Below, one piece after another: positions 22,673 through 36,067 of a DNA stretch of 36,067 nt (positions within the stretch are counted from its first letter, which is position 1; each line of letters starts with the position of its first letter). The stretch is from Methanomassiliicoccus sp. (GTDB lineage Archaea > Thermoplasmatota > Thermoplasmata > Methanomassiliicoccales > UBA472), in the NCBI GenBank assembly GCA_004525545.1, contig SPCU01000004.1, positions 1 through 36,067 on the forward strand, read 5' to 3'. The notes under the pieces are model-generated. The model was not told where the DNA came from, ran no database searches, and saw only the letters and a program-made list of their open reading frames with translations. A program made the position numbers and the translations under genes.

Positions 22673-23773
22673 GTGAGCGGGATGAATGAAAGGATCAGAT
22701 GGATCTTCTCCAATTGCCAGGACGGCCTGGACGCCATCGTTATCATGAACGCCGAAGAGCCACTGTTGGATGTGGCCTTCCCTTACATCACTTGCACGAA
22801 GGCCGGACTTTTCGAAGGATGTCTGGGGGTGATCACCCCCGACGGCCGCTCGACCATCATCACCTCCGCTTTGGAGGAGACCTCGGCTCGTGGAGGAAAG
22901 AGCGAGGTGCTGATATACCGCACCCGCAAGGAAAGGGATGAACTGGCCTCCGGCTTCATGAAGAAGTTCCGCACGGTGGGAGTGAACGGGCAGGGCATCA
23001 CCCATGCCAATTACTTGGAGATCGACCGGCTGACACCCAACGCCGAACTGCTGGACGTGAGCAAGGGCCTGGAAACATCCCGTTTAATAAAGGATAGGGA
23101 TGAGATAGACCGGATACGCCGGGCGTGCGGGATCGCCTCCCGGGTGGCGGATGATATTCCAGGCTTATTGAGGAAAGGAATGACAGAGTACGAGGCAGCG
23201 GCGGAGATCGATTATCGTATGATGAAGTTGGGAGCCTCTGGAACGGCCTTCGGTACCAACGCCTCCTTCGGCGCCAGCTCGGCCGAGCCTCATCACGGGG
23301 CGGAGGACATCGTTCTGAAGGAGGGACATGTGGCCTTGTTCGATTTCGGATGCAAGGTCGATGGATACTGCTCCGATATCACCCGCACCTTCTTCGTGAA
23401 TGAAGTGAAGGACTGGCAGGAACACATGTATCAGGTGGTTCTGGAAGCACAGGGAGCGGCCTTGGCGACCATCAAGGCCGGCGCCAACGGCAAAGATGTG
23501 GACGCGGCCGCCCGTAAGGTCATCGACGCCAGCGAGTTTAAAGGGCTGATGGTCCACTCGACCGGTCATGGATTGGGCTTATCGGTGCATGATGGGGGCC
23601 GGATGGCCCTCGATCATGACTTCCTGTTGAAGGAGGGCATGGTGCTGACGGTAGAGCCGGGGGTTTATATCGCAGGGCGAGGAGGGGTTCGCATCGAAGA
23701 TGACGTCCTGATCACAAAGGACGGGTACGAGATGCTCACAGACGCCTCTAAGGAAATGAAGGTGATCACATGA
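22673..23773 (+). CDS. Xaa-Pro aminopeptidase/M24 family metallopeptidase
   Basis: ALFDFGCKVDGYCSDITRTFFV, HSTGHGLGLSVHDGG, VLTVEPGVYI: M24 metal-binding motifs. Confidence 0.93.
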   Translation: MSGMNERIRWIFSNCQDGLDAIVIMNAEEPLLDVAFPYITCTKAGLFEGCLGVITPDGRSTIITSALEETSARGGKSEVLIYRTRKERDELASGFMKKFRTVGVNGQGITHANYLEIDRLTPNAELLDVSKGLETSRLIKDRDEIDRIRRACGIASRVADDIPGLLRKGMTEYEAAAEIDYRMMKLGASGTAFGTNASFGASSAEPHHGAEDIVLKEGHVALFDFGCKVDGYCSDITRTFFVNEVKDWQEHMYQVVLEAQGAALATIKAGANGKDVDAAARKVIDASEFKGLMVHSTGHGLGLSVHDGGRMALDHDFLLKEGMVLTVEPGVYIAGRGGVRIEDDVLITKDGYEMLTDASKEMKVIT

Positions 23774-25146
23774 TGGACCAGCTGGAAAGAGCGGTGGAGC
23801 GTATGAGAATGGAGGGGGCGGACTTCTGCGACGCCCGTTATCAAACCATCACCACGACCGGTGTGGCGGTGGTGGACGCGGCGGTCAAACGGATCTCCGA
23901 GGACCGCATGAGAGGAGCATGCCTACGGGCAAGGAAGAGGGGCTCATGGGGCTACGCCACCACCGTGGATGTGTCCAAGGATACTCTTTTGGAGGCGGCT
24001 GTCAAGGCCGTTCGAAACGCCAAGGCCGGAAACTCCTCGGGCAAGCTCATCCCGGACCTGGGCGGCGCCAGGGCCGATCTGAAGGCCAACGTTCAGATGC
24101 ATCCTTCCAAGGTAGGCATGGATGAGAGGGTGCAGGCGGCCCTGGACCTGGACCGGGCACAGAAGGTGGACCCTCGCATAGTCAATACCAATTCCATGCT
24201 GCGGGAGGAGGTGCGCCATAACCAGTTGGTAAGCAGCCATGACCGACAGTTGAGCTGGGAGGAGGTACGTTCCTCCCTAATGGTGGAGGCGGTGGCCTCG
24301 GAAGCAGGCCGAACCGAATTTTTTTATGACATTCGCGATGGTTCCAAGGGCTTCGAGCTGGTCAAGGCCACTGATCTGGAGACATTGGGCCGGAACACCG
24401 GGTTGGAAGCGCTCAAGATGCTCACCGCGGTGAAAGCCCCTTCGGGACTGGTCACCTGCATAACCGATCCCAGCATATCCGGGCTGCTGGCCCACGAGGT
24501 CATGGGGCACGCCTCCGAGGCGGACGAGATCGTCAAACGGCGTTCTTTCCTGACCGACATGGTGGGGAAGAAGGTCGGATCGCCCCTCATCACCATGGTA
24601 GACGATGGAACGGTGCCAGGAGCTAGAGGGACCGTTCCATTCGATGACGAGGGAACACCCTCATCGCGCACCACCATCATACAGGACGGGGTTTACCAGG
24701 GATACATGCACTCGCTGGAGACGGCGGCAGAAATGGGCACGAAACCGACAGGCAACGGCAGGGCGCAGGACTTCGGGCGGAGAGTTTGGGTGCGCATGAC
24801 CAACACCTTCTTCGAGAAAGGGGACCAGACCCTGGAAGAGATGATCGCCGACGTGAAGCTGGGAGTGCTCACCGACCGCATGATCAGCGGTATGGAGGAC
24901 CCGGTGGGCGGAGGCTTTGAGGCCAAAGCATTGCGAGGGTTCCTCATTGAGAACGGCCAGGTGACCAAGATGTTACGTTCGTTCACGCTGACCGGCAACG
25001 CCTTGGACATACTGGGGACCGGCGACGCCGTAGGCAAGAAGGTGACCCTGGACGGAGGCTACTGCGGCAAGGGCATCGAGGATTGGGTGCCGGTATCCTC
25101 CGGTGGACCGCATTGCCGTTTCAAGATCGTGCTGGGAGGTGACTGA
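23770..25146 (+). CDS. tldD: TldD family metalloprotease
   Basis: LLAHEVMGHASEADEI (HExxxH), GTPSSRTTIIQDGVYQGYMHSLETA, GMEDPVGGGFEAKALRGFLIENGQ. Confidence 0.92.
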   Translation: MMDQLERAVERMRMEGADFCDARYQTITTTGVAVVDAAVKRISEDRMRGACLRARKRGSWGYATTVDVSKDTLLEAAVKAVRNAKAGNSSGKLIPDLGGARADLKANVQMHPSKVGMDERVQAALDLDRAQKVDPRIVNTNSMLREEVRHNQLVSSHDRQLSWEEVRSSLMVEAVASEAGRTEFFYDIRDGSKGFELVKATDLETLGRNTGLEALKMLTAVKAPSGLVTCITDPSISGLLAHEVMGHASEADEIVKRRSFLTDMVGKKVGSPLITMVDDGTVPGARGTVPFDDEGTPSSRTTIIQDGVYQGYMHSLETAAEMGTKPTGNGRAQDFGRRVWVRMTNTFFEKGDQTLEEMIADVKLGVLTDRMISGMEDPVGGGFEAKALRGFLIENGQVTKMLRSFTLTGNALDILGTGDAVGKKVTLDGGYCGKGIEDWVPVSSGGPHCRFKIVLGGD

Positions 25147-26502
25147 ATGGACCTGGAGAGGATGTCCAAGAAGACGGTGCACAACGTCCTGGAGGAGGGA
25201 GCCAAGGAGGCCGAAGCCTACCTTGTGAGGGTGCGGTCGCTAACAGCTTACATCGACGACGATATGATCAAGAACTTAGAGGTGAAGCTGGACCAGGGAC
25301 TTTCGGTCAAGGTCTCCCTCAACGGTCGGTTGGGGCAGTCCAGCTCCACCATTTTCCACATGCGGGACCTGGAGGAATGCGGGGCGAAGGCGGTGGCTCT
25401 GGCGAAGTTATCCCGCCCCGATCCTTACTTCAAGAGGTTCCCGGGATTTCAGCATCCGAACGGTTCGTTGGATGTTTGCTCCGAAGACATCGTCAACGCC
25501 ACAAATGAAACGTTGAGGGACAAGGTCAACAACATTGTCAGCGCCGTCGGGGAAGGAGTGAGGATCCCCCGAGGACAGTTACGGGTGGCGGTCATCGAGA
25601 GGGCGCTGGCCAACTCCAATGGGGCGGCCTATCGCGAGATAGGCACCATGGCCTACGCCCATTTCACCTCCATGACCAACGGGGTAGATCCCGGTGAGGG
25701 GTGCGAGTGTTACTATTCTTCCGGCCTGTCCGCGCTGGATACCGAGGAGATGGGACGGAAGCTCCGGGCCAAGGCCTTGAACGCCCAAGGCGCCAAGCAC
25801 TACAAGGGCAAGATGACCGTGCCGGTGGTGCTGCCGCCAGAAGAGCTGGCGGAGATGCTGCTGGCCTCGGTCGGCTACTCGCTGGACGGAGAGAACGCCC
25901 TGCGGCACCGCTCCCCTTGGGGAGAAATGGTGGAGAAGGAGGTCGGCAATACCCTGGTGGACCTACAGGACCGGCCTTGGGACCCACGTTCCTCCCTATC
26001 TTGCCAGTACGATGACGAGGGCACTCCGACACGGGAAAGACCATTGGTCGAGAAGGGAGTGCTGAGAACGCTGTTGTACGACGCTTATCACGCCCAGATG
26101 GGCGGCGTGGTGGCGACGGGCAGTTGCATGAGGCGAGATCCTACCGATGCCCTGAACCTCTATCGCCGAGGCAGCGCCACCTTGCCCATCAACCTGACAT
26201 GGAGGGCGGGCAGGAGCAGCTTGGAGGATATGATCTCCGAGATGAAGGAGGGAGTGGTCATAGAAAAACTGGCCGCCCCGGATGTCAACAGCGTCACTGG
26301 CGGCTTCGCCCTGGAGGTACGCAGCGCCAAATATGTGCGGGACGGCCAGGTGGAGGGCCACATCGACCAGTGCCTGCTTGTGGGCAACTTCTACCAAGCG
26401 CTTAAGAAGGTGAGCGCGGTGGGCAGCGATCCGACCGTTCACGGAAATTGCATCGTGCCATCGGTGCGCTTTGACGACCTGGAGATCGTGGGCAGCGAAT
26501 GA
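25147..26502 (+). CDS. TldE/PmbA family protein
   Basis: 451 aa partner directly after tldD; PVVLPPEELAEMLLASVGYSLDGENAL, DDEGTPTRERPLVEKGVLRTLLYD, VNSVTGGFALEVR. Confidence 0.9.
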   Translation: MDLERMSKKTVHNVLEEGAKEAEAYLVRVRSLTAYIDDDMIKNLEVKLDQGLSVKVSLNGRLGQSSSTIFHMRDLEECGAKAVALAKLSRPDPYFKRFPGFQHPNGSLDVCSEDIVNATNETLRDKVNNIVSAVGEGVRIPRGQLRVAVIERALANSNGAAYREIGTMAYAHFTSMTNGVDPGEGCECYYSSGLSALDTEEMGRKLRAKALNAQGAKHYKGKMTVPVVLPPEELAEMLLASVGYSLDGENALRHRSPWGEMVEKEVGNTLVDLQDRPWDPRSSLSCQYDDEGTPTRERPLVEKGVLRTLLYDAYHAQMGGVVATGSCMRRDPTDALNLYRRGSATLPINLTWRAGRSSLEDMISEMKEGVVIEKLAAPDVNSVTGGFALEVRSAKYVRDGQVEGHIDQCLLVGNFYQALKKVSAVGSDPTVHGNCIVPSVRFDDLEIVGSE

Positions 26503-26505
26503 TCT

Positions 26506-26874
26506 TTAGGCCCTTTCCAGGGTGACGGAGGTCTTGTCGGAAAGTTTGGCCAGTCCCTTGAGGTCGCCCAACACCCTTCCCACCGGGCTCACCGGGGAGA
26601 ACGCTTCCGGCCTAGAGGTCGTGGAAACAGGCGTCTTGCCGAAGAAGAAACATAGGGCGTCCCCTTCCGGCCAGAAGGCCACTTCTCCCTCGTCCAAGAT
26701 CTTCTTCCCGTTCTCCAGCTCGCCGCTAACCGGGATGGCGAAATAGAACTCACCGCCCCATACGTTGATCTCTCGTTCCAACGGCAGTGACTCGTATATC
26801 TTCCAAGCGGTCAAAGAATCGTTCAGCTCGATCTCGAACTGTTCGTACCTTGTGCGCATCAAAATTCTTTCCAT
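26506..26874 (-). CDS. cyclophilin-like fold protein (TM1367/DUF369-like)
   Basis: FEIELNDSLTAWKIYESLPLEREINVWGGEFYFAIPV..WPEGDALCFFFGKTP. Confidence 0.8.
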   Translation of the reverse strand: MERILMRTRYEQFEIELNDSLTAWKIYESLPLEREINVWGGEFYFAIPVSGELENGKKILDEGEVAFWPEGDALCFFFGKTPVSTTSRPEAFSPVSPVGRVLGDLKGLAKLSDKTSVTLERA

Positions 26875-26920
26875 GCCCTCTCCCGGAAAGGGAAAGGGTG
26901 GAAGGGTGAAAAGGGTTTCG

Positions 26921-27910
26921 TCACTTCTTGATCTCGAAGAGGGCGCGTATCTCCGTGCCTACCTTCTCGACCTGGCTGTCGGCCTCGGCACTCTCCATGG
27001 CTTTCATCCTTGGCATGCCGGCCTTGGCGTCCGCCAACCATTCCTTGGCGAAGTCACCGGAACAGATGCGGTCCAGCATCTTCTCCATGGCCGCACGGCT
27101 CTCGTCATTGATGACCAGGTCCCTGGTGGTCAGCCCGCCGAACTCGGCGGTGTTGGAGACGCTTCTCCACATGTTCATCATGCCGCCCTGGTAGATCAGG
27201 TCCACGATGAGCTTGACCTCGTGGAGGCACTCGAAGTAAGCGATCTCCGGCTGGTATCCCCTCTTGACCAGGGTCTGGAAGCCAGCGTTGATGAGGGCGG
27301 TTACCCCGCCGCATAGCACGGCCTGCTCTCCGAACAGGTCGGAGGTGGCCTCCTCACGGAAGTCGGTCTCCAGGACACCGGCCTTGGTAGCCCCGATGCC
27401 CTTGGCCAATGCCAGGGCGAACTGTTTTGCCTTACCGGAGTGGTCCTGGTGCACGGCGATGAGCGCTGGGACGCCGAATCCTTCAACGAACACCTTCCGC
27501 ACCATGGGGCCCGGGGCCTTCGGGGCCATCATGATCACGTCCACGGTCTTGGGCGGGATGATCACACCGAAGGTGATGGAGAACCCATGAGCGAAATCCA
27601 ATGCCGCCCCATCCTTTAGGTTCGGCAGTATCTCCGAGTGGTAGACGTCTCCCTGCACCTCATCCGGGATGAGCACCATGACCACATCCGCGTCCTTGAC
27701 GGCGCCGGCCACGGTGTCCACTTTCAACCCGTTCTTCTTGGCTTCGACCCAGGACTTGCCGTCCTTGCGCACACCGACGGTCACGTCCAATCCGCAATCG
27801 TGCAGACATAGGGATTGAGCCCTGCCTTGGCTACCGAAACCGATGACCGCGACCTTCTTGCCCTTCAGGACGCCTAGGTCGGCGTCTGACTCGTGATAAA
27901 TCCTTGCCAT
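26921..27910 (-). CDS. ilvC: ketol-acid reductoisomerase
   Basis: VAVIGFGSQGRAQSLCLHDCGLDV, DLFGEQAVLCGGVTALI, YFECLHEVKLIVDLIYQGG; start set at MARIYHESD (27910). Confidence 0.97.
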   Translation of the reverse strand: MARIYHESDADLGVLKGKKVAVIGFGSQGRAQSLCLHDCGLDVTVGVRKDGKSWVEAKKNGLKVDTVAGAVKDADVVMVLIPDEVQGDVYHSEILPNLKDGAALDFAHGFSITFGVIIPPKTVDVIMMAPKAPGPMVRKVFVEGFGVPALIAVHQDHSGKAKQFALALAKGIGATKAGVLETDFREEATSDLFGEQAVLCGGVTALINAGFQTLVKRGYQPEIAYFECLHEVKLIVDLIYQGGMMNMWRSVSNTAEFGGLTTRDLVINDESRAAMEKMLDRICSGDFAKEWLADAKAGMPRMKAMESAEADSQVEKVGTEIRALFEIKK

Positions 27911-27973
27911 TTGATCACCGTTAGATGCATTGACGCATTTTATGCGCAATATTTACAATGTTCTACTCCACCA

Positions 27974-29653
27974 TTAGCATTTGTTCCAACGGCAGCGTTT
28001 GCGTAAGGTGCCTTTGTTACTAGCGACCCCTCCCGGCAGCATTGGGAGCATATCCTCCTCCGGGTCGGTGCGGATGTCCACCACGAACGGGACATCGGAG
28101 GCGAAGGCCCTCTTGTAAGCATCGCTAAGCTCGCTGGACCTCGTGACCGTCACGCCGTCCGCGCCGAAGGCTTGGGCCAGCTTTACGAAGTCGGGGTTGT
28201 TGCGCAGCTCGGTCCCGCTATAACGGCTGCCCCATTGGAGCTTCTGCCATTGTTTCACCATACCCAGCCAGCCGTTGTTGAGCAGACACACTACCACCGG
28301 CAGGTCCACGCTCATGGCCGTTGCCAGCTCTTGGAACACCATTTGGAAGCTACCATCCCCGGCTACGTCCACCACCTGTTTGTCGCGGTACGCGTACTTC
28401 ACACCGAGAGATGCCGGAAAGCCGAAGCCCATGGTGCCCATCCCACCCGAGGTAAGGAACTGATTGGGGTGCTTCAGGCGCATGAAGTGCGCGGCCCACA
28501 TCTGATTTTGTCCGACCTCCGTCACCACGAAGGCGTCCGGGTCAAGCGCCTTTCGTAGCTCCCAGATCGCTTTCTGTGGTTTTATTGGGTCCTCATCTAT
28601 GTCAATATCGCAAACGCAGCCGTCAAAGAGCTCCTTCACTCTTTTGCTCCAGGCCGAATCCCCTTTGGATTGGGCTAGCCCCTTGATCACGAGCTGCAGG
28701 CCCTTGCGGGCGTCGCCCACCAGCCTGACCCTGGTCCGGGGGTTCTTACCTGCCTCCATTGGATCGATGTCCAGGCGTATGATCTTAGTGTCCTTGGGCA
28801 TCTCGCCATCGTAACCGATGGTACGGTCGGAAAAGCGCGAGCCGATGGCGAACACCACGTCCGCCTCCAATAATGCCCGACGAGAGCACTCTCTGCCATG
28901 CATGCCCAGCATTCCCAGCGAGAGAGGATGGTCCTCAGGGATGATGGCCTTGGCCATTATCGTGGTGATCACTGGGGCGAACAGTATCTCGGCCAGACGC
29001 TGTACCTCGTTGGAAGCGTCAGCCCATCTGGCGCCGCCGCCGACCAGTAACACTGGTCTCTCGGCCTCGCGTAGTATCTTGACCGCCTCCATCACACCGG
29101 AGAGGTCTTCGAAAGGTGCGGGAACCGGGAACTCCTCGTTCAATTTGGATGGTTCTATTTGACCGTTCAACACGTCCACTGGAAGGTCGATATGCACCGG
29201 GCCCTTACGACCGTTGTTGGCGATGCCCATGCCCCTCTTGATGGCCTCGGGCAGATCATTCGGCCTCAGTACGCGATAGTTATGCTTGGTGATGGGCATC
29301 ATCAGACTGAAGATGTCCGCCTCCTGGAAGGCATTATTACCGATCATGCTGGTGGCCACTTGACCAGTGAGGACCATCATAGGGGATGAATCCGCATAGG
29401 CGGTCGCCACCCCGGTCACCAGGTTCGTAGCACCAGGTCCGGATGTGGCCAGGCATACACCGGTCTTGCCGGTCGACCTGGAGTATCCATCGGCCATATG
29501 GGCGGCGCACTGTTCGTGACGAACGAGGACGTGGTGTATGTCCGAATCCAACAGATCATCGTATATGGGAATGGTGACCCCGCCTGGATAACCGAAAATG
29601 ACGTCTACACCCTGCCCCTCGAGCAGTTCAAGAACAGCCTTCGAACCTTTCAT
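27974..29653 (-). CDS. ilvB: acetolactate synthase large subunit
   Basis: ThDP-enzyme hallmarks: FGYPGGVTIPIYD, VRHEQCAAHMADGYSR, SGPGATNLVTGVATAYADS, GDGSFQMVFQELATA; SD GAGGG upstream. Confidence 0.97.
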   Translation of the reverse strand: MKGSKAVLELLEGQGVDVIFGYPGGVTIPIYDDLLDSDIHHVLVRHEQCAAHMADGYSRSTGKTGVCLATSGPGATNLVTGVATAYADSSPMMVLTGQVATSMIGNNAFQEADIFSLMMPITKHNYRVLRPNDLPEAIKRGMGIANNGRKGPVHIDLPVDVLNGQIEPSKLNEEFPVPAPFEDLSGVMEAVKILREAERPVLLVGGGARWADASNEVQRLAEILFAPVITTIMAKAIIPEDHPLSLGMLGMHGRECSRRALLEADVVFAIGSRFSDRTIGYDGEMPKDTKIIRLDIDPMEAGKNPRTRVRLVGDARKGLQLVIKGLAQSKGDSAWSKRVKELFDGCVCDIDIDEDPIKPQKAIWELRKALDPDAFVVTEVGQNQMWAAHFMRLKHPNQFLTSGGMGTMGFGFPASLGVKYAYRDKQVVDVAGDGSFQMVFQELATAMSVDLPVVVCLLNNGWLGMVKQWQKLQWGSRYSGTELRNNPDFVKLAQAFGADGVTVTRSSELSDAYKRAFASDVPFVVDIRTDPEEDMLPMLPGGVASNKGTLRKRCRWNKC

Positions 29654-30536: not shown

Positions 30537-31784
30537 ATGGAGCACGGAGCGCAAAGCCAACTTATTAACGACCCTCACGTCAAAAGGGTATGGGACCTGA
30601 TCAACGGTGACTCGCTCTTCAAGATGAGCGTTGACGACCTGGCCTCATTACGCCAATCGTTACGCCGGGAGTCCTTACAGTACTTCGCCAGACATAACCC
30701 CTACTACGCGGAACTTTTCGAAAGATTGGACATCGATCCGGCGAAGGCGACGCTGCACGATGTGGCCAAGCTAGCCATACCATCGGACATGCTGCGCGGG
30801 GAAGGACAGAAGAAGTTTCTCATTAGGGACCTGGAAGAGGGCGGGGAGACATTCTCCTCCAGCGGTACCACTGGTAAGGACCCGGTGCGCGTCTATCGTT
30901 CACCGATAGATCTGGCCATCATGCTCAAGGCCAACACAGATCTCTTCGAGTACGTGTACGGGGACCTGCTGAAGGAGGGAGAGGGCGTAGCGTTGTTCAT
31001 GGCCGCCCCCGAGCTCAGGTACAAGCTCAGCTTCGTAGCCTTCGTTCACCTGACATTGGAAAAGAAGGGCATCGAACTCCTTTATGGCATGGACCTGGAG
31101 AACAAGGACCAGGCCGGAACTCCCTGGCAGAAACTGGTGCCCAATAAGGAGAATCTGCTCAAGTTCCTCAAGTCAAAGAAGGAGCCGAAGCTCTTTTTCA
31201 CCGCTCCGGCGGGCGTACACCTCATGTGCCAGAAATTCGACGAGATGGGATACGGTAAGAAGCTGGCCTACAAGATGGCCTCGGGGGCACCCCCGGTGCG
31301 CCTGGGTAAGGGGGGCGTCATCGTCACCGGAGGGGGCAGTAAAGGCTTCGCCGACCTGCCAGAGTATCCCCGGTTGGTATCGAACGCCCAGAAGCATTTC
31401 ATTGCTCAGAACCGTAATGGAGGGGAGGGGAGCACCCCCTTCATGGACGTGCTGGGAATGACGGAGACGCTGACGGCGTTGATCGATCGGCACGGCGTCA
31501 TGGACAAGATGCCCCACCCTCTGTCGGAGGCGTTCATTCTCGATCCGCTGACCTTCGAACCGTTGGAAGGTGAGGGCAAGGAGGGAGTGCTGGGTATCTT
31601 CAACCCCTTTACCACATCCTGGCTGGAGGTGTTCTACCCCGGGGACATCATGTCCTGGCATTCTTCTGAGCGCTACTACGGAAAGGAGTTCGTGTACAAG
31701 CGCCGGCTCAGCGTCAAGGAGGGTTGGGACCTTCAACGCGCTTGCGGCGGCACCTTGGAAGAGATGATGACCAAAGGGCAGTGA
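30537..31784 (+). CDS. LuxE-like acyl-protein synthetase/acyltransferase
   Basis: GGETFSSSGTTGKDPVRVYRSP (adenylation P-loop-like), DVLGMTETLTALI, Cys 15 residues from the C-terminus (RACGGTLEEMMTKGQ) as in LuxE; start at 30537 supported by AAGGAG SD. Confidence 0.85.
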   Translation: MEHGAQSQLINDPHVKRVWDLINGDSLFKMSVDDLASLRQSLRRESLQYFARHNPYYAELFERLDIDPAKATLHDVAKLAIPSDMLRGEGQKKFLIRDLEEGGETFSSSGTTGKDPVRVYRSPIDLAIMLKANTDLFEYVYGDLLKEGEGVALFMAAPELRYKLSFVAFVHLTLEKKGIELLYGMDLENKDQAGTPWQKLVPNKENLLKFLKSKKEPKLFFTAPAGVHLMCQKFDEMGYGKKLAYKMASGAPPVRLGKGGVIVTGGGSKGFADLPEYPRLVSNAQKHFIAQNRNGGEGSTPFMDVLGMTETLTALIDRHGVMDKMPHPLSEAFILDPLTFEPLEGEGKEGVLGIFNPFTTSWLEVFYPGDIMSWHSSERYYGKEFVYKRRLSVKEGWDLQRACGGTLEEMMTKGQ

Positions 31785-31824
31785 GCGGCATCATTTAATT
31801 GGCAGGAAGGCCATTGCCTGGGCC

Positions 31825-33291
31825 ATGTGCCCCAAGGTAGCGCCGTTGCTTTTCGATCGTTCCCTGGAGAACGTACCAAGCGGCGGTAACGAGGATGTCA
31901 TGGAGCTCTCGCCCTCCGCCCTGGAAGAGCTGATCAGGTTGGCGCCTTCGGTGCAGGCCACACTGTCATCCGTCCCCATCGAGGAAAGATTGCAGGTAAT
32001 CGAGCAGATGGCCAGGCTCTGGAAGGACAAACTTGACCGCGGCGACCTGGACCACCTCAAAGATGAAATGGCCGCGTCCACCGGATACTCGCCGTCCCTC
32101 ATGGAGACCGAACTGTCGTTCGTGCCCGCGGTCCTGGGGGCGAGCAACATCCGCAAGAACCTGGAGGCGTCCGTCCAGGGTGGGGCGGAGGCCCTTTGCC
32201 GCTTCGTGGAGATGGACGAGACCGAGATGTTCCGCCACGTTCCGGTCGGTCCGGTGCTGATCATCAGTTCCGGCAACTCCATCGTTCCTACGCTCATACC
32301 GACGGTGATGTCATTGGTCACCGGCAACCTGACCATATTGAAGCCGTCAATAGCGAACTATCACGGGGTCACCGAGGTGTTCAAGCTCCTGTCGGAAGTA
32401 ACGGACGGTCCCGTCTCCAAGGCCATGAGGGACGCCTTGGTAGTGTGCTACTTTGGGCATGACTCCCCGTCGCTGAAAGCGGCGCTGGAAAAATTGCCCA
32501 TGGGCATGATCAACTTCTGGGGGGCGGAACCGGCCCGGACCATCGTGGCCAATATGGTGAACGGCAACCCACACCACCCGCGCTTCTTCGTCAACGGTCC
32601 ATTCACCGGCATGGCCTTGATCGAGGAGGGGGTGGACACGGTGCAAGCCGCGGACGATCTGGCACTGGATGTGGTGCTTTACGATCAGCAGCTGTGCTCC
32701 TCACCGACCTCGGCGGTCTTCATTGGTAGTTTCGAAGAGGCCAAGAAGTTCTTACGCACGGCCGGAGAGCGCCTGGACGATGTGGGTATGGAATTCCCCT
32801 TGCCTTTGGACCAGGATCGAATGTTCACATTACAGGGCGCTAGGCGGTACATACAGACAGAAGGGGGGACGGTCCTCTCTTCCAGGGAACCGGCCAACCC
32901 CTGGACCTTAGTACTTTCGAAGAGGAAGAGTTCCATGAACGGCCTGGCCGCCCAGTTCCCTAATTTCAACCTCTTCGTCAGGAGACGATTCCTGGAGATC
33001 GTGGTGGTGCCGGATGCCGATTCAGCCGTGGCTTTGCTGCGCGACCTGCCGGGACATCCTGCCTTCAGAGGCATCGACGGGGTGCAGAGCGTTGGACTGG
33101 CGGTGAATGAGAGCTCCAAGAAGGGGATCGTCGACCGATTGGTGAACGCCGGAGTGCACCGCATTCTGCCGCTGGGCGACATGTTCATGCGTGGCGCGGT
33201 GGAACCGTATGACGGTGTGCCCATGAGCTCGTTGTTCACCCGCATAGTGTATTGGCGTGGCAAGAACACCTCACCGGGGGAGCATCTTTGA
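31825..33291 (+). CDS. LuxC-like acyl-CoA/acyl-protein reductase (aldehyde dehydrogenase superfamily)
   Basis: VGPVLIISSGNSIVPTLIPTVMSLVTGNLTILKPS, YDQQLCSSPTSAVFIGS (catalytic Cys context), directly downstream of LuxE. Confidence 0.87.
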   Translation: MCPKVAPLLFDRSLENVPSGGNEDVMELSPSALEELIRLAPSVQATLSSVPIEERLQVIEQMARLWKDKLDRGDLDHLKDEMAASTGYSPSLMETELSFVPAVLGASNIRKNLEASVQGGAEALCRFVEMDETEMFRHVPVGPVLIISSGNSIVPTLIPTVMSLVTGNLTILKPSIANYHGVTEVFKLLSEVTDGPVSKAMRDALVVCYFGHDSPSLKAALEKLPMGMINFWGAEPARTIVANMVNGNPHHPRFFVNGPFTGMALIEEGVDTVQAADDLALDVVLYDQQLCSSPTSAVFIGSFEEAKKFLRTAGERLDDVGMEFPLPLDQDRMFTLQGARRYIQTEGGTVLSSREPANPWTLVLSKRKSSMNGLAAQFPNFNLFVRRRFLEIVVVPDADSAVALLRDLPGHPAFRGIDGVQSVGLAVNESSKKGIVDRLVNAGVHRILPLGDMFMRGAVEPYDGVPMSSLFTRIVYWRGKNTSPGEHL

Positions 33292-34265
33292 AGGTTCTGG
33301 TCACCGGGGCCACGGGCTTTCTGGGCGGGCACTTGATCAGGGAGATGGCCAAGGGGCCGCACGCACCTTTGTGCGCCTACCGCAAAGGCAGTGACACCCG
33401 ATCGATCGATGAACTGGGCCTGCCTAAGGTCAATTTCGATCTCACCGATCCAGCATCCATGAGCGAAGCGGTCAAGGGGGTGGACGCGGTGATCCATCTG
33501 GCAGCCTACTATACATTCACTGGCCGCAATGACCTGTACGAGAGTATCAACGTCCAGGGCACGCGGCGGTTATTGGAGGCCTGTCAAGAGAACGGGGTCA
33601 AGCGCTTCCTGTATTGCAGCAGCACCGAGGCCATGGGTCCGGTGGAACACCCCCCTGCGAACGAGGACGCCCCGTTGAACCCTCAGTACGAGTACGGAAG
33701 GTCCAAGGTCAAGGCCGAGGAACTGGTCAACTCATCCGGACTGGATTGGACGATACTGCGCCCTTCGGGGATCTACGGACCGAGCAATGTGGACGACGTC
33801 GCCTACTACTTCATCACCTCGTTCAAAGGCTTCGCCTCCAAGTTCATCATCGGCTCGGGGAAGAACTATATCCAGTTCGTGCACGTCAAGGACGTGGTCA
33901 AAGGGTTCCTGTTGGCATTGGACAATCCAACGGCCGTCACCAGAACCTACATCATCTCCCAGGCCAGGCCGTACACCTACGAAGAGGTGTATCGGCTCTT
34001 GGCCGATATATTCGGCCAACCAGAGCCTCGATGGAGGTTGAAGAAGAGGTTGGCCATCGCCCTTATGTTTCCTATCGAGGGATTCAACACCTTGATCGGT
34101 CGGGAGAACTTTCTTTATCGCCGGGAGACGGTGGAGAGCGTCACCAGCGATAGAGCATTCACCATCGACAGGGCCAGGCGGGAGCTGGGCTATGAGCCGG
34201 ATTATGACCTGCCAGAGGGCATGAGGGAGACGGTAGCCTGGTATCGGGAGAACGGCTATCTTTAA
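33288..34265 (+). CDS. NAD-dependent epimerase/dehydratase (extended SDR)
   Basis: KVLVTGATGFLGGHLI, YCSSTEAMGP, YEYGRSKVKAEELV; TTG start at 33288 overlaps LuxC stop, GGGGGAG SD inside LuxC end. Confidence 0.88.
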   Translation: MKVLVTGATGFLGGHLIREMAKGPHAPLCAYRKGSDTRSIDELGLPKVNFDLTDPASMSEAVKGVDAVIHLAAYYTFTGRNDLYESINVQGTRRLLEACQENGVKRFLYCSSTEAMGPVEHPPANEDAPLNPQYEYGRSKVKAEELVNSSGLDWTILRPSGIYGPSNVDDVAYYFITSFKGFASKFIIGSGKNYIQFVHVKDVVKGFLLALDNPTAVTRTYIISQARPYTYEEVYRLLADIFGQPEPRWRLKKRLAIALMFPIEGFNTLIGRENFLYRRETVESVTSDRAFTIDRARRELGYEPDYDLPEGMRETVAWYRENGYL

Positions 34266-34311
34266 AGCAACGGTTAAATCCCCTTTTCCTTTTTACCCCG
34301 ATGGTGAGAGA

Positions 34312-35268
34312 ATGGAGATGACCGTGGCCTGGCGCAAGATATTGAACCTGTTGAGGATAAGCTACACCTTGCCCTTCGTCATGGCCTCGGTGACCGGGGC
34401 CGCCTTCGCCTTGAGCGTGAGCGACGGGTTGCTGCTGGCGTTCCTGATCCCTCTTGACGTGTTCTTCCTGGCCATGTTCGTCAATATCTCCAATGATTAT
34501 TTTGACCACAAGAGCGGCACCGACGCCTCTCGCTTCCAATTTCGCACGCCTGAGCTGGAAGAGGCCCTCAAGGAGATCTATGACGAGAGGGTATACTGGA
34601 CAGGGAACACCTTCGATAAGGGCGAGGTAAGTGAAAGGAATGGGCGCATGATCATCGGCATCATCGCCCTGGGAGCCCTGCTGGTATCCATCCCCATCAT
34701 CATGCACGGCGGCTGGCTCGTGATCATATTGGGAGCGGTCGCGTTCTTCCTCTCCTACTTCTACACCGCCCCGCCTCTGAACCTGGGGGCGCGGGGATTG
34801 GGAGAGCTGGACGTGGGTATGTCATTCTTCATGATGTCCTTCTTCACATACTACGTCATCGTCCAGATATGGTCCTGGGAGATGTTCCTGATCGCTTTGA
34901 CCGTCGGTCTGACGGTCATGCTCATGCGCTTCGTGGACCAGATGTCCGGCTATAAGGCGCACCTTGAGGGCGGGGAGAAGGACTGGTGCGTACGATTGGG
35001 GTTGGAGAGAGCTGTCAGCGCCGTCGGCATATTATTGGTCGTGCTGTACGCTTTCTGCTTCGCCCTGATCTACTTCGACCCCTTGTACGTGGTTCTGTTC
35101 CTGACCCTGCCCATGAGCTTCGGTCTGATGAGGATGCTGCGGAACAAAGAGGATGATCTGCGTTTCATCCGACCGGCACCTCAGATGTTCAAGCTGGCAC
35201 TTGGCAATCAGATACTGATAATCATTTCGTTGATATTGCAAAGCGTCCTGCCATGGACAATATGGTAG
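34312..35268 (+). CDS. UbiA-family prenyltransferase
   Basis: NISNDYFDHKSGTD (NDxxDxxxD-type motif), many TM segments, SYFYTAPPLNLGARGLGEL; stop is TAG. Confidence 0.9.
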   Translation: MEMTVAWRKILNLLRISYTLPFVMASVTGAAFALSVSDGLLLAFLIPLDVFFLAMFVNISNDYFDHKSGTDASRFQFRTPELEEALKEIYDERVYWTGNTFDKGEVSERNGRMIIGIIALGALLVSIPIIMHGGWLVIILGAVAFFLSYFYTAPPLNLGARGLGELDVGMSFFMMSFFTYYVIVQIWSWEMFLIALTVGLTVMLMRFVDQMSGYKAHLEGGEKDWCVRLGLERAVSAVGILLVVLYAFCFALIYFDPLYVVLFLTLPMSFGLMRMLRNKEDDLRFIRPAPQMFKLALGNQILIIISLILQSVLPWTIW

Positions 35269-36067
35269 AGGGGCTCCCGCGTGTCACCAGGGAATATTCG
35301 CGCACGGCGTTGAAACCGCATTTCTTGCACGCCTCCCCTCTCATAGGACATCCGTAATGCTTGCTGCGGTCAGGCATAACGAACTCCGAGGCCCAGAAGG
35401 GGCACTTTTTCGAATAATCCTCTATCAGCAGTTCCTTCAGCGCCTTATTGGAGTTGAGGATGGGATAGCCTTCCTTCTTCAGGGCGGTGATCTCCTCCAC
35501 CGCCTTGCGCTTCTCCTCCAAGGTCAAGGTCTTTGATTCTGGCGGAGGGGTCAGGAAATTGATCATTAGGCCGTTGATATGCGGATTATCGCGGACTATG
35601 GAGGCCGTCTCCCTGATCCGGTCCTTGTTGTCGGGCATGACCACCATGTTGGCGAAGACATTGGGATGGTTAACATTCTCCAGGTTCTCCATCAACCTAT
35701 CATAGGTGCCGGGGCATCGGATTGTATCGTGCACCTCCTTCGGCCCGTCCAGAGAGACGGAGATGACATCGCTCTCCAGATAGAACACGTTGGTTCCGTT
35801 GGTAGTATAACCGGTAACGAAATAACCGATCTCCCTTCCCGCCTTGATGAGGTCCAGCAAGGTACGGTCCCCGTCGCTCCAGTGGGTCGGTTCTCCGCCC
35901 TCGAAGAAGAGTACGCGAGTGCCACGGTCGAACGAGGCCTTCATCTCCTCCAGGGCTGCTTCGTAGGATATGCTGTGCGGTTGGGGAATGAGCGGAAGGT
36001 TCTGGGCTATCTGACAGTGCTGGCACCTGAGATTGCACTGGTATGTGATGATCATGGTGTTGACCAG
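35222..36067 (-). CDS. radical SAM protein, probably truncated at its N-terminus by the window edge
   Basis: YQCNLRCQHCQ (CxxxCxxC), VLFFEGGEPTHW, ISVSLDGP; C-terminal Cys cluster CPFW..GCPMRGEACKKCGF. The frame continues upstream of the Met at 36055. Confidence 0.9.
   Translation of the reverse strand: MVNTMIITYQCNLRCQHCQIAQNLPLIPQPHSISYEAALEEMKASFDRGTRVLFFEGGEPTHWSDGDRTLLDLIKAGREIGYFVTGYTTNGTNVFYLESDVISVSLDGPKEVHDTIRCPGTYDRLMENLENVNHPNVFANMVVMPDNKDRIRETASIVRDNPHINGLMINFLTPPPESKTLTLEEKRKAVEEITALKKEGYPILNSNKALKELLIEDYSKKCPFWASEFVMPDRSKHYGCPMRGEACKKCGFNAVREYSLVTRGSPSTILSMAGRFAISTK

Follow-up and report, generated by a model that had tools for sequence, protein, structure and literature searches.

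The window analysed here, 36,067 nucleotides of contig SPCU01000004.1 from the methanogenic archaeon Methanomassiliicoccus sp. (order Methanomassiliicoccales; genome completeness 98%), carries adjacent genes for a LuxE-like acyl-protein synthetase, a LuxC reductase and an extended short-chain dehydrogenase/reductase (SDR). These three genes, LuxE-LuxC-SDR, are the real unit of the locus and form a three-gene operon. Taken as a whole, our analysis indicates that this operon is probably a carboxylate-reducing module of the Methanomassiliicoccales, acting via LuxE Cys403 and LuxC Cys291, and that the downstream genes for a UbiA prenyltransferase and a radical S-adenosylmethionine (radical-SAM) protein would be separate from it. 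The original prediction for this DNA had tied LuxE, LuxC, SDR and UbiA together; all four open reading frames were confirmed with their coordinates, as was the overlap of the second and third genes, where the SDR start codon TTG (33288-33290) lies on the LuxC stop codon TGA (33289-33291) as 'TTGA'. The true start of LuxE is uncertain, with in-frame GTG (30510) and TTG (30489) codons upstream of the ATG. The operon and its predicted catalytic residues are as follows:

30537-31784, plus strand: LuxE-like acyl-protein synthetase of a divergent clade, 415 amino acids from the ATG (profile-profile comparison, PDB profile match)
30858-30875, plus strand: SSGTTG adenylation motif, LuxE residues 108-113 (SSGT invariant)
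31743-31745, plus strand: codon of LuxE Cys403 (RACGG), putative acyl-carrying nucleophile (invariant; aligned to the canonical Cys)
31825-33291, plus strand: LuxC acyl-protein thioester/acyl-coenzyme A (acyl-CoA) reductase (Pfam LuxC, PDB 7xc6_A)
32695-32697, plus strand: codon of LuxC active-site Cys291 (QQLCSSPT; invariant, aligned to the 7xc6_A Cys)
33288-34265, plus strand: extended SDR of the HpnA/OleD-like superfamily, TTG start (Pfam Epimerase)
33693-33707, plus strand: SDR catalytic motif YGRSK (Tyr and Lys invariant)

Our survey was based on 147 genomes of Methanomassiliicoccales and on a wider phylum set of 390 Thermoplasmatota genomes. LuxE is present in 27 of the 147 genomes and a close LuxC orthologue in 26, and all carriers whose contigs allow a check, except genome G126, show the order LuxE-LuxC-SDR on one strand. 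This gene order is kept in named Methanomassiliicoccales genomes and the arrangement is therefore not due to chance. Conserved synteny had been proposed as a check on the original prediction: the order of the first three genes, and with it the linkage of the SDR to LuxE and LuxC, withstood that check, whereas the adjacency of UbiA did not. The ratios of non-synonymous to synonymous substitution rates for LuxE, LuxC and SDR range from 0.05 to 0.22 (values for distant pairs being rough owing to saturated synonymous sites), and all three genes are therefore maintained by purifying selection. Family f5 clusters with genera g3/g6 of family f1 in the LuxC tree (support 0.89) and in the SDR tree (0.995), a grouping that, short of a formal test, would fit a joint transfer of the three genes without UbiA. 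No close LuxE relative was found outside the order among the 390 Thermoplasmatota genomes. All three genes also occur on a contig labelled Candidatus Methanomethylicia (L007:90-3818), with a LuxE 67% identical to that of the window, an occurrence that may reflect transfer or mis-binning.

The assignment of the first gene to LuxE, made originally from motifs, is supported by both homology and active-site residues. The profile of the window family and that of the canonical LuxE proteins of the same order matched in hhalign at 98.4% (E=8.7e-15, 342 columns), and the solved LuxE 7xc6_E was matched by the window-family alignment profile at 4.6e-5, the canonical profile of the order reaching it at 3e-40. 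In the profile-profile alignment Cys403 falls on the canonical C-terminal Cys, which corresponds to residue 364 of 7xc6_E when counted back from the alignment end and which we take to be the known acyl-carrying residue. Cys403 is invariant among LuxE orthologues, as are S108, S109, G110 and T111 of the adenylation motif in the 19 orthologues compared.

LuxC is the more readily recognised protein, and here too the earlier call was upheld by Pfam (3e-31, 109 bits for a cut-off of 21) and by the active-site Cys. The LuxC alignment profile matched the solved LuxC 7xc6_A at 1.5e-17, and Cys291 is invariant in 20 orthologues and aligns to the equivalent 7xc6_A Cys; the luminous-type NCBIfam equivalog is not reached (41.9 bits, cut-off 750). 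For the SDR, Pfam returned Epimerase (3e-45), and the best NCBIfam model was HpnA, at 153.6 bits far under its cut-off of 367.65, with 123 bits for OleD (cut-off 580). Its function as an aldehyde/ketone reductase is plausible on sequence grounds, because Tyr148 and Lys152 (alignment numbering) are invariant and the best solved relative is 3wj7, a 'putative oxidoreductase' (4.9e-47); the literature yielded nothing usable on this relative or on the solved LuxC-LuxE complex. Open frames of about 820 amino acids, initially considered as LuxC-SDR fusions, in fact encode LuxC fused to PaaK and belong to another LuxE-LuxC type.

Several observations weigh against this reading of the operon. With a threshold as loose as E<=10, the window LuxE still matches nothing in Pfam, PF04443 included (reached by 1 of 19 orthologues, E=0.003), nor does it match the curated NCBIfam LuxE model NF052244; its predicted structure is mediocre (predicted local distance difference test score 68.6), and Foldseek places PaaK ligases first for this model (1.3e-9, template-modelling score 0.55), with the solved LuxE not among the listed top 50. 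The SDR superfamily spans epimerases and dehydrogenases, which makes any assignment of its reaction a guess. Genome G126 (L044:8648-11612) keeps LuxE-LuxC, on long branches and with the active-site cysteines retained, without SDR, UbiA or radical SAM, and the f5 grouping is weak in the LuxE tree (support 0.41).

The Foldseek ranking, together with weak NCBIfam matches of the window LuxE to a CoA ligase family and to FlxY, would suit a different pair of enzymes, a PaaK-like acyl-CoA (or aryl-CoA) ligase and a LuxC reducing free acyl-CoA, with an acyl-CoA and not an acyl-enzyme as the intermediate. We regard this as unlikely, given an invariant Cys at the position of the canonical LuxE nucleophile and given that the control profile, built from three PaaK-type domain sequences of this order, was not matched (0.4%). 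The fold comparison, made on a predicted model, confirms an adenylate-forming enzyme and does not separate LuxE from PaaK. Judged from its sequence, the window protein thus belongs to a divergent LuxE clade, a call made because the profile tie to canonical LuxE and the Cys403 match both lead there, while Pfam fails and the fold cannot tell the two families apart. The breadth of the SDR superfamily, which includes sugar-nucleotide epimerases, also invites the idea that the module makes a building block for sugars or glycans that bears an aldehyde or alcohol modification, with the SDR as a sugar epimerase or dehydratase; luxC and luxE genes, which may play such a part in bacterial flagellar glycosylation islands, are reportedly mentioned in work on these islands (PMC7874193, PMC4875605). 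No glycosyltransferase or sugar-nucleotide gene was, by eye, conserved beside the module across carrier families, and we consider this idea most improbable.

For the carboxylate-reducing module that we favour, the chemistry of these families would have LuxE adenylate a carboxylic acid with ATP to acyl-AMP, the acyl group then moving onto the C-terminal Cys403 and being passed from there to LuxC Cys291. Reduction of the thioester by LuxC, with NAD(P)H, would yield an aldehyde, on which the SDR would then act, most likely converting it to an alcohol. Such carboxylate-reduction chemistry, already envisaged in the original prediction, is supported by our data; the extension of the pathway to UbiA is not. 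The absence of luciferase also held, PF00296 being found in 0 of 10 carrier genomes (the host and nine relatives). The ketosynthase family gave, in ten carrier genomes, either no match or stretches of 33-44 residues read as thiolases, which supports the earlier suspicion that the substrate is not a usual fatty acid. De novo fatty acids are an unlikely substrate on these sequence data, since no convincing ketosynthase was found in the ten carriers, and this would imply that the carboxylate used as substrate, and the product made from it, are uncharacterised. We also thought of a part in butanetriol/pentanetriol tetraether lipids and set this aside as a mere idea, no gene evidence pointing to it.

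Downstream of the operon lie two further genes:

34312-35268, plus strand: UbiA prenyltransferase (MenA-like), a neighbour probably outside the module (Pfam UbiA; distribution independent of LuxE)
35222-36067, minus strand: radical-SAM protein, 5' end beyond the window (Pfam Radical_SAM, 1.2e-18; adjoins UbiA across the order)

UbiA begins, as originally described, 46 bp after the SDR stop codon in the same direction, and the radical-SAM gene converges on it with overlapping 3' ends (35222-35268). UbiA matches its Pfam family at 2.4e-15, comfortably above the Pfam cut-off as are LuxC and the SDR for theirs, and scores below cut-off on all NCBIfam MenA models; its first motif, NDxxD, is kept, and the second Asp-rich motif (usually DxxxD) is altered, with D209, H217 and E222 invariant in that region. 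Orthologues occur in about 65 of the 147 genomes, mostly without LuxE, and virtually every one of these has the radical-SAM gene next to UbiA, generally in convergent orientation and usually 3'-overlapping (same-strand in G016); at this score level the radical-SAM family is found only in the order (380 phylum genomes). UbiA and radical SAM thus look like a second unit, independently conserved and placed beside the module only in part of the order. For a UbiA of this order, a function in connection with a lipid-soluble electron carrier has been proposed (PMC4153887), and the pair is a candidate for that role.

The arrangement in the window, with four contiguous and co-directional genes, could also be read as a single pathway that leads to a prenylated or quinone-like lipid and in which the reduced product of the acid or a derivative of it is prenylated by UbiA. 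The order including UbiA is kept in 14 genomes, all of families f1 and f2, among the 22 that have both LuxE and UbiA; the electron-carrier function proposed for a UbiA of the order would suit such a pathway, and LuxE and UbiA co-occur above chance across the 147 genomes (odds ratio 7.9, p=2e-5, a descriptive figure that ignores phylogeny). We nonetheless hold a single pathway to be quite unlikely, and the distribution and synteny of UbiA speak against it. UbiA adjoins LuxE-LuxC-SDR in only 2 of 5 carrier families and 14 of 27 genomes; it lies on a different contig in 8 LuxE carriers, and in f4 and f6 carriers unrelated genes follow the SDR, UbiA being on another contig. It occurs without LuxE in 43 genomes, and five LuxE carriers lack it, three of them 99% complete (G126 and the f5 genomes G019 and G021), where LuxE-LuxC is present. 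A UbiA profile search in these carriers retrieved at most remote paralogues (sister genomes scored above 470 bits). Outside family f6 no positive association remains (LuxE/UbiA table 15/5/23/2, p=0.21, again descriptive and ignoring phylogeny); the whole-order association was rejected as support for one pathway, as it comes from f6, where most genomes have neither gene. It is tempting to speculate on an archaeon-specific route in which a non-fatty acid, for example isoprenoid or aromatic, is converted to an alcohol or aldehyde that in some lineages enters a UbiA/radical-SAM-derived membrane electron carrier or lipid, a scenario that we rate as highly doubtful.

Natural deletions bear on the same question. 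In several f1 genomes the module is gone between ilvB/GrpB and UbiA, with differing breakpoints: SDR residues 154-337 are left with stops in G142 (L139), a frameshifted SDR in G146 (L140), SDR residues 236-337 with stops in G137 (L141), and a LuxE scrap (residues 2-36) beside SDR residues 292-337 in G131 (L142), and no module remnant is detectable in this interval in G141 and G135. At these loci UbiA is open over its covered length, being split across two contigs in G146. Errors of draft assembly are possible for a single scar and could hardly account for all of them. As read from these sequences, the deletions support the view that LuxE, LuxC and SDR function as a unit and that UbiA is not dependent on it; distribution and decay scars together led us to reject UbiA as a member of the module. 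The upstream neighbourhood (23770-29653), with a tldD/pmbA pair, a 122-amino-acid open reading frame and ilvC-ilvB, is kept beside the locus in much of f1, whether the module is present or not; G136, G135 and G126 carry a duplicated ilvB.

LuxE-LuxC pairs outside bioluminescence were already known. The window module is a divergent variant of such pairs with a fixed extended-SDR partner, and L007 is its one occurrence outside this order in our survey. The half of bacterial bioluminescence that reduces an acid would thus occur in methanogens as a stand-alone, conserved operon, and an apparent single cluster splits in two, LuxE-LuxC-SDR for one metabolite and UbiA with radical SAM for another, possibly the lipid-soluble electron carrier of the order. 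This separation points experiments at the right genes.

Other Lux-type genes are present in the order. The host genome has a second, canonical LuxE (L001, G000:C57) beside a 325-amino-acid protein that no NCBIfam model matches and that, judged by eye, resembles a transglutaminase. LuxC is fused to a PaaK-like domain at L039, L040 and L042 (genomes G101, G031 and G087, with LuxE upstream in G031), and G023 has a LuxE-LuxC-FabG module (L041). These LuxE-LuxC-FabG and LuxE plus LuxC-PaaK modules resemble that of the window in combining LuxE and LuxC with a further reductase or ligase. They differ in that their LuxE is canonical, that NCBIfam Lux models recognise their LuxE and LuxC, below cut-off, and that the third component is a classical FabG-type SDR or a fused PaaK, not an extended SDR; their proteins are roughly 25-30% identical to those of the window.

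Among characterised families, MenA-type enzymes share with the window UbiA the family and the NDxxD first motif, whereas the window protein falls below all MenA cut-offs and has an altered second Asp-rich motif. HpnA and OleD belong with the window SDR to one superfamily with YxxxK, although the latter stays under both curated cut-offs. PaaK has the adenylating-domain fold and SSGTTG motif in common with the window LuxE, whose C-terminal region, unlike that of PaaK, is LuxE-like with an invariant Cys, and which has no profile match to the PaaK-type domains of the order. The closest parallel is the LuxE-LuxC fatty-acid reductase of luminous bacteria (7xc6), with adjacent luxE- and luxC-type genes, the adenylation motif, the C-terminal Cys of LuxE and the QQxC of LuxC. 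In contrast to that system, the window genome has neither a luciferase family nor a convincing fatty-acid ketosynthase, its LuxE fails the Pfam and NCBIfam LuxE models, and the fixed partner of the pair is an extended SDR.

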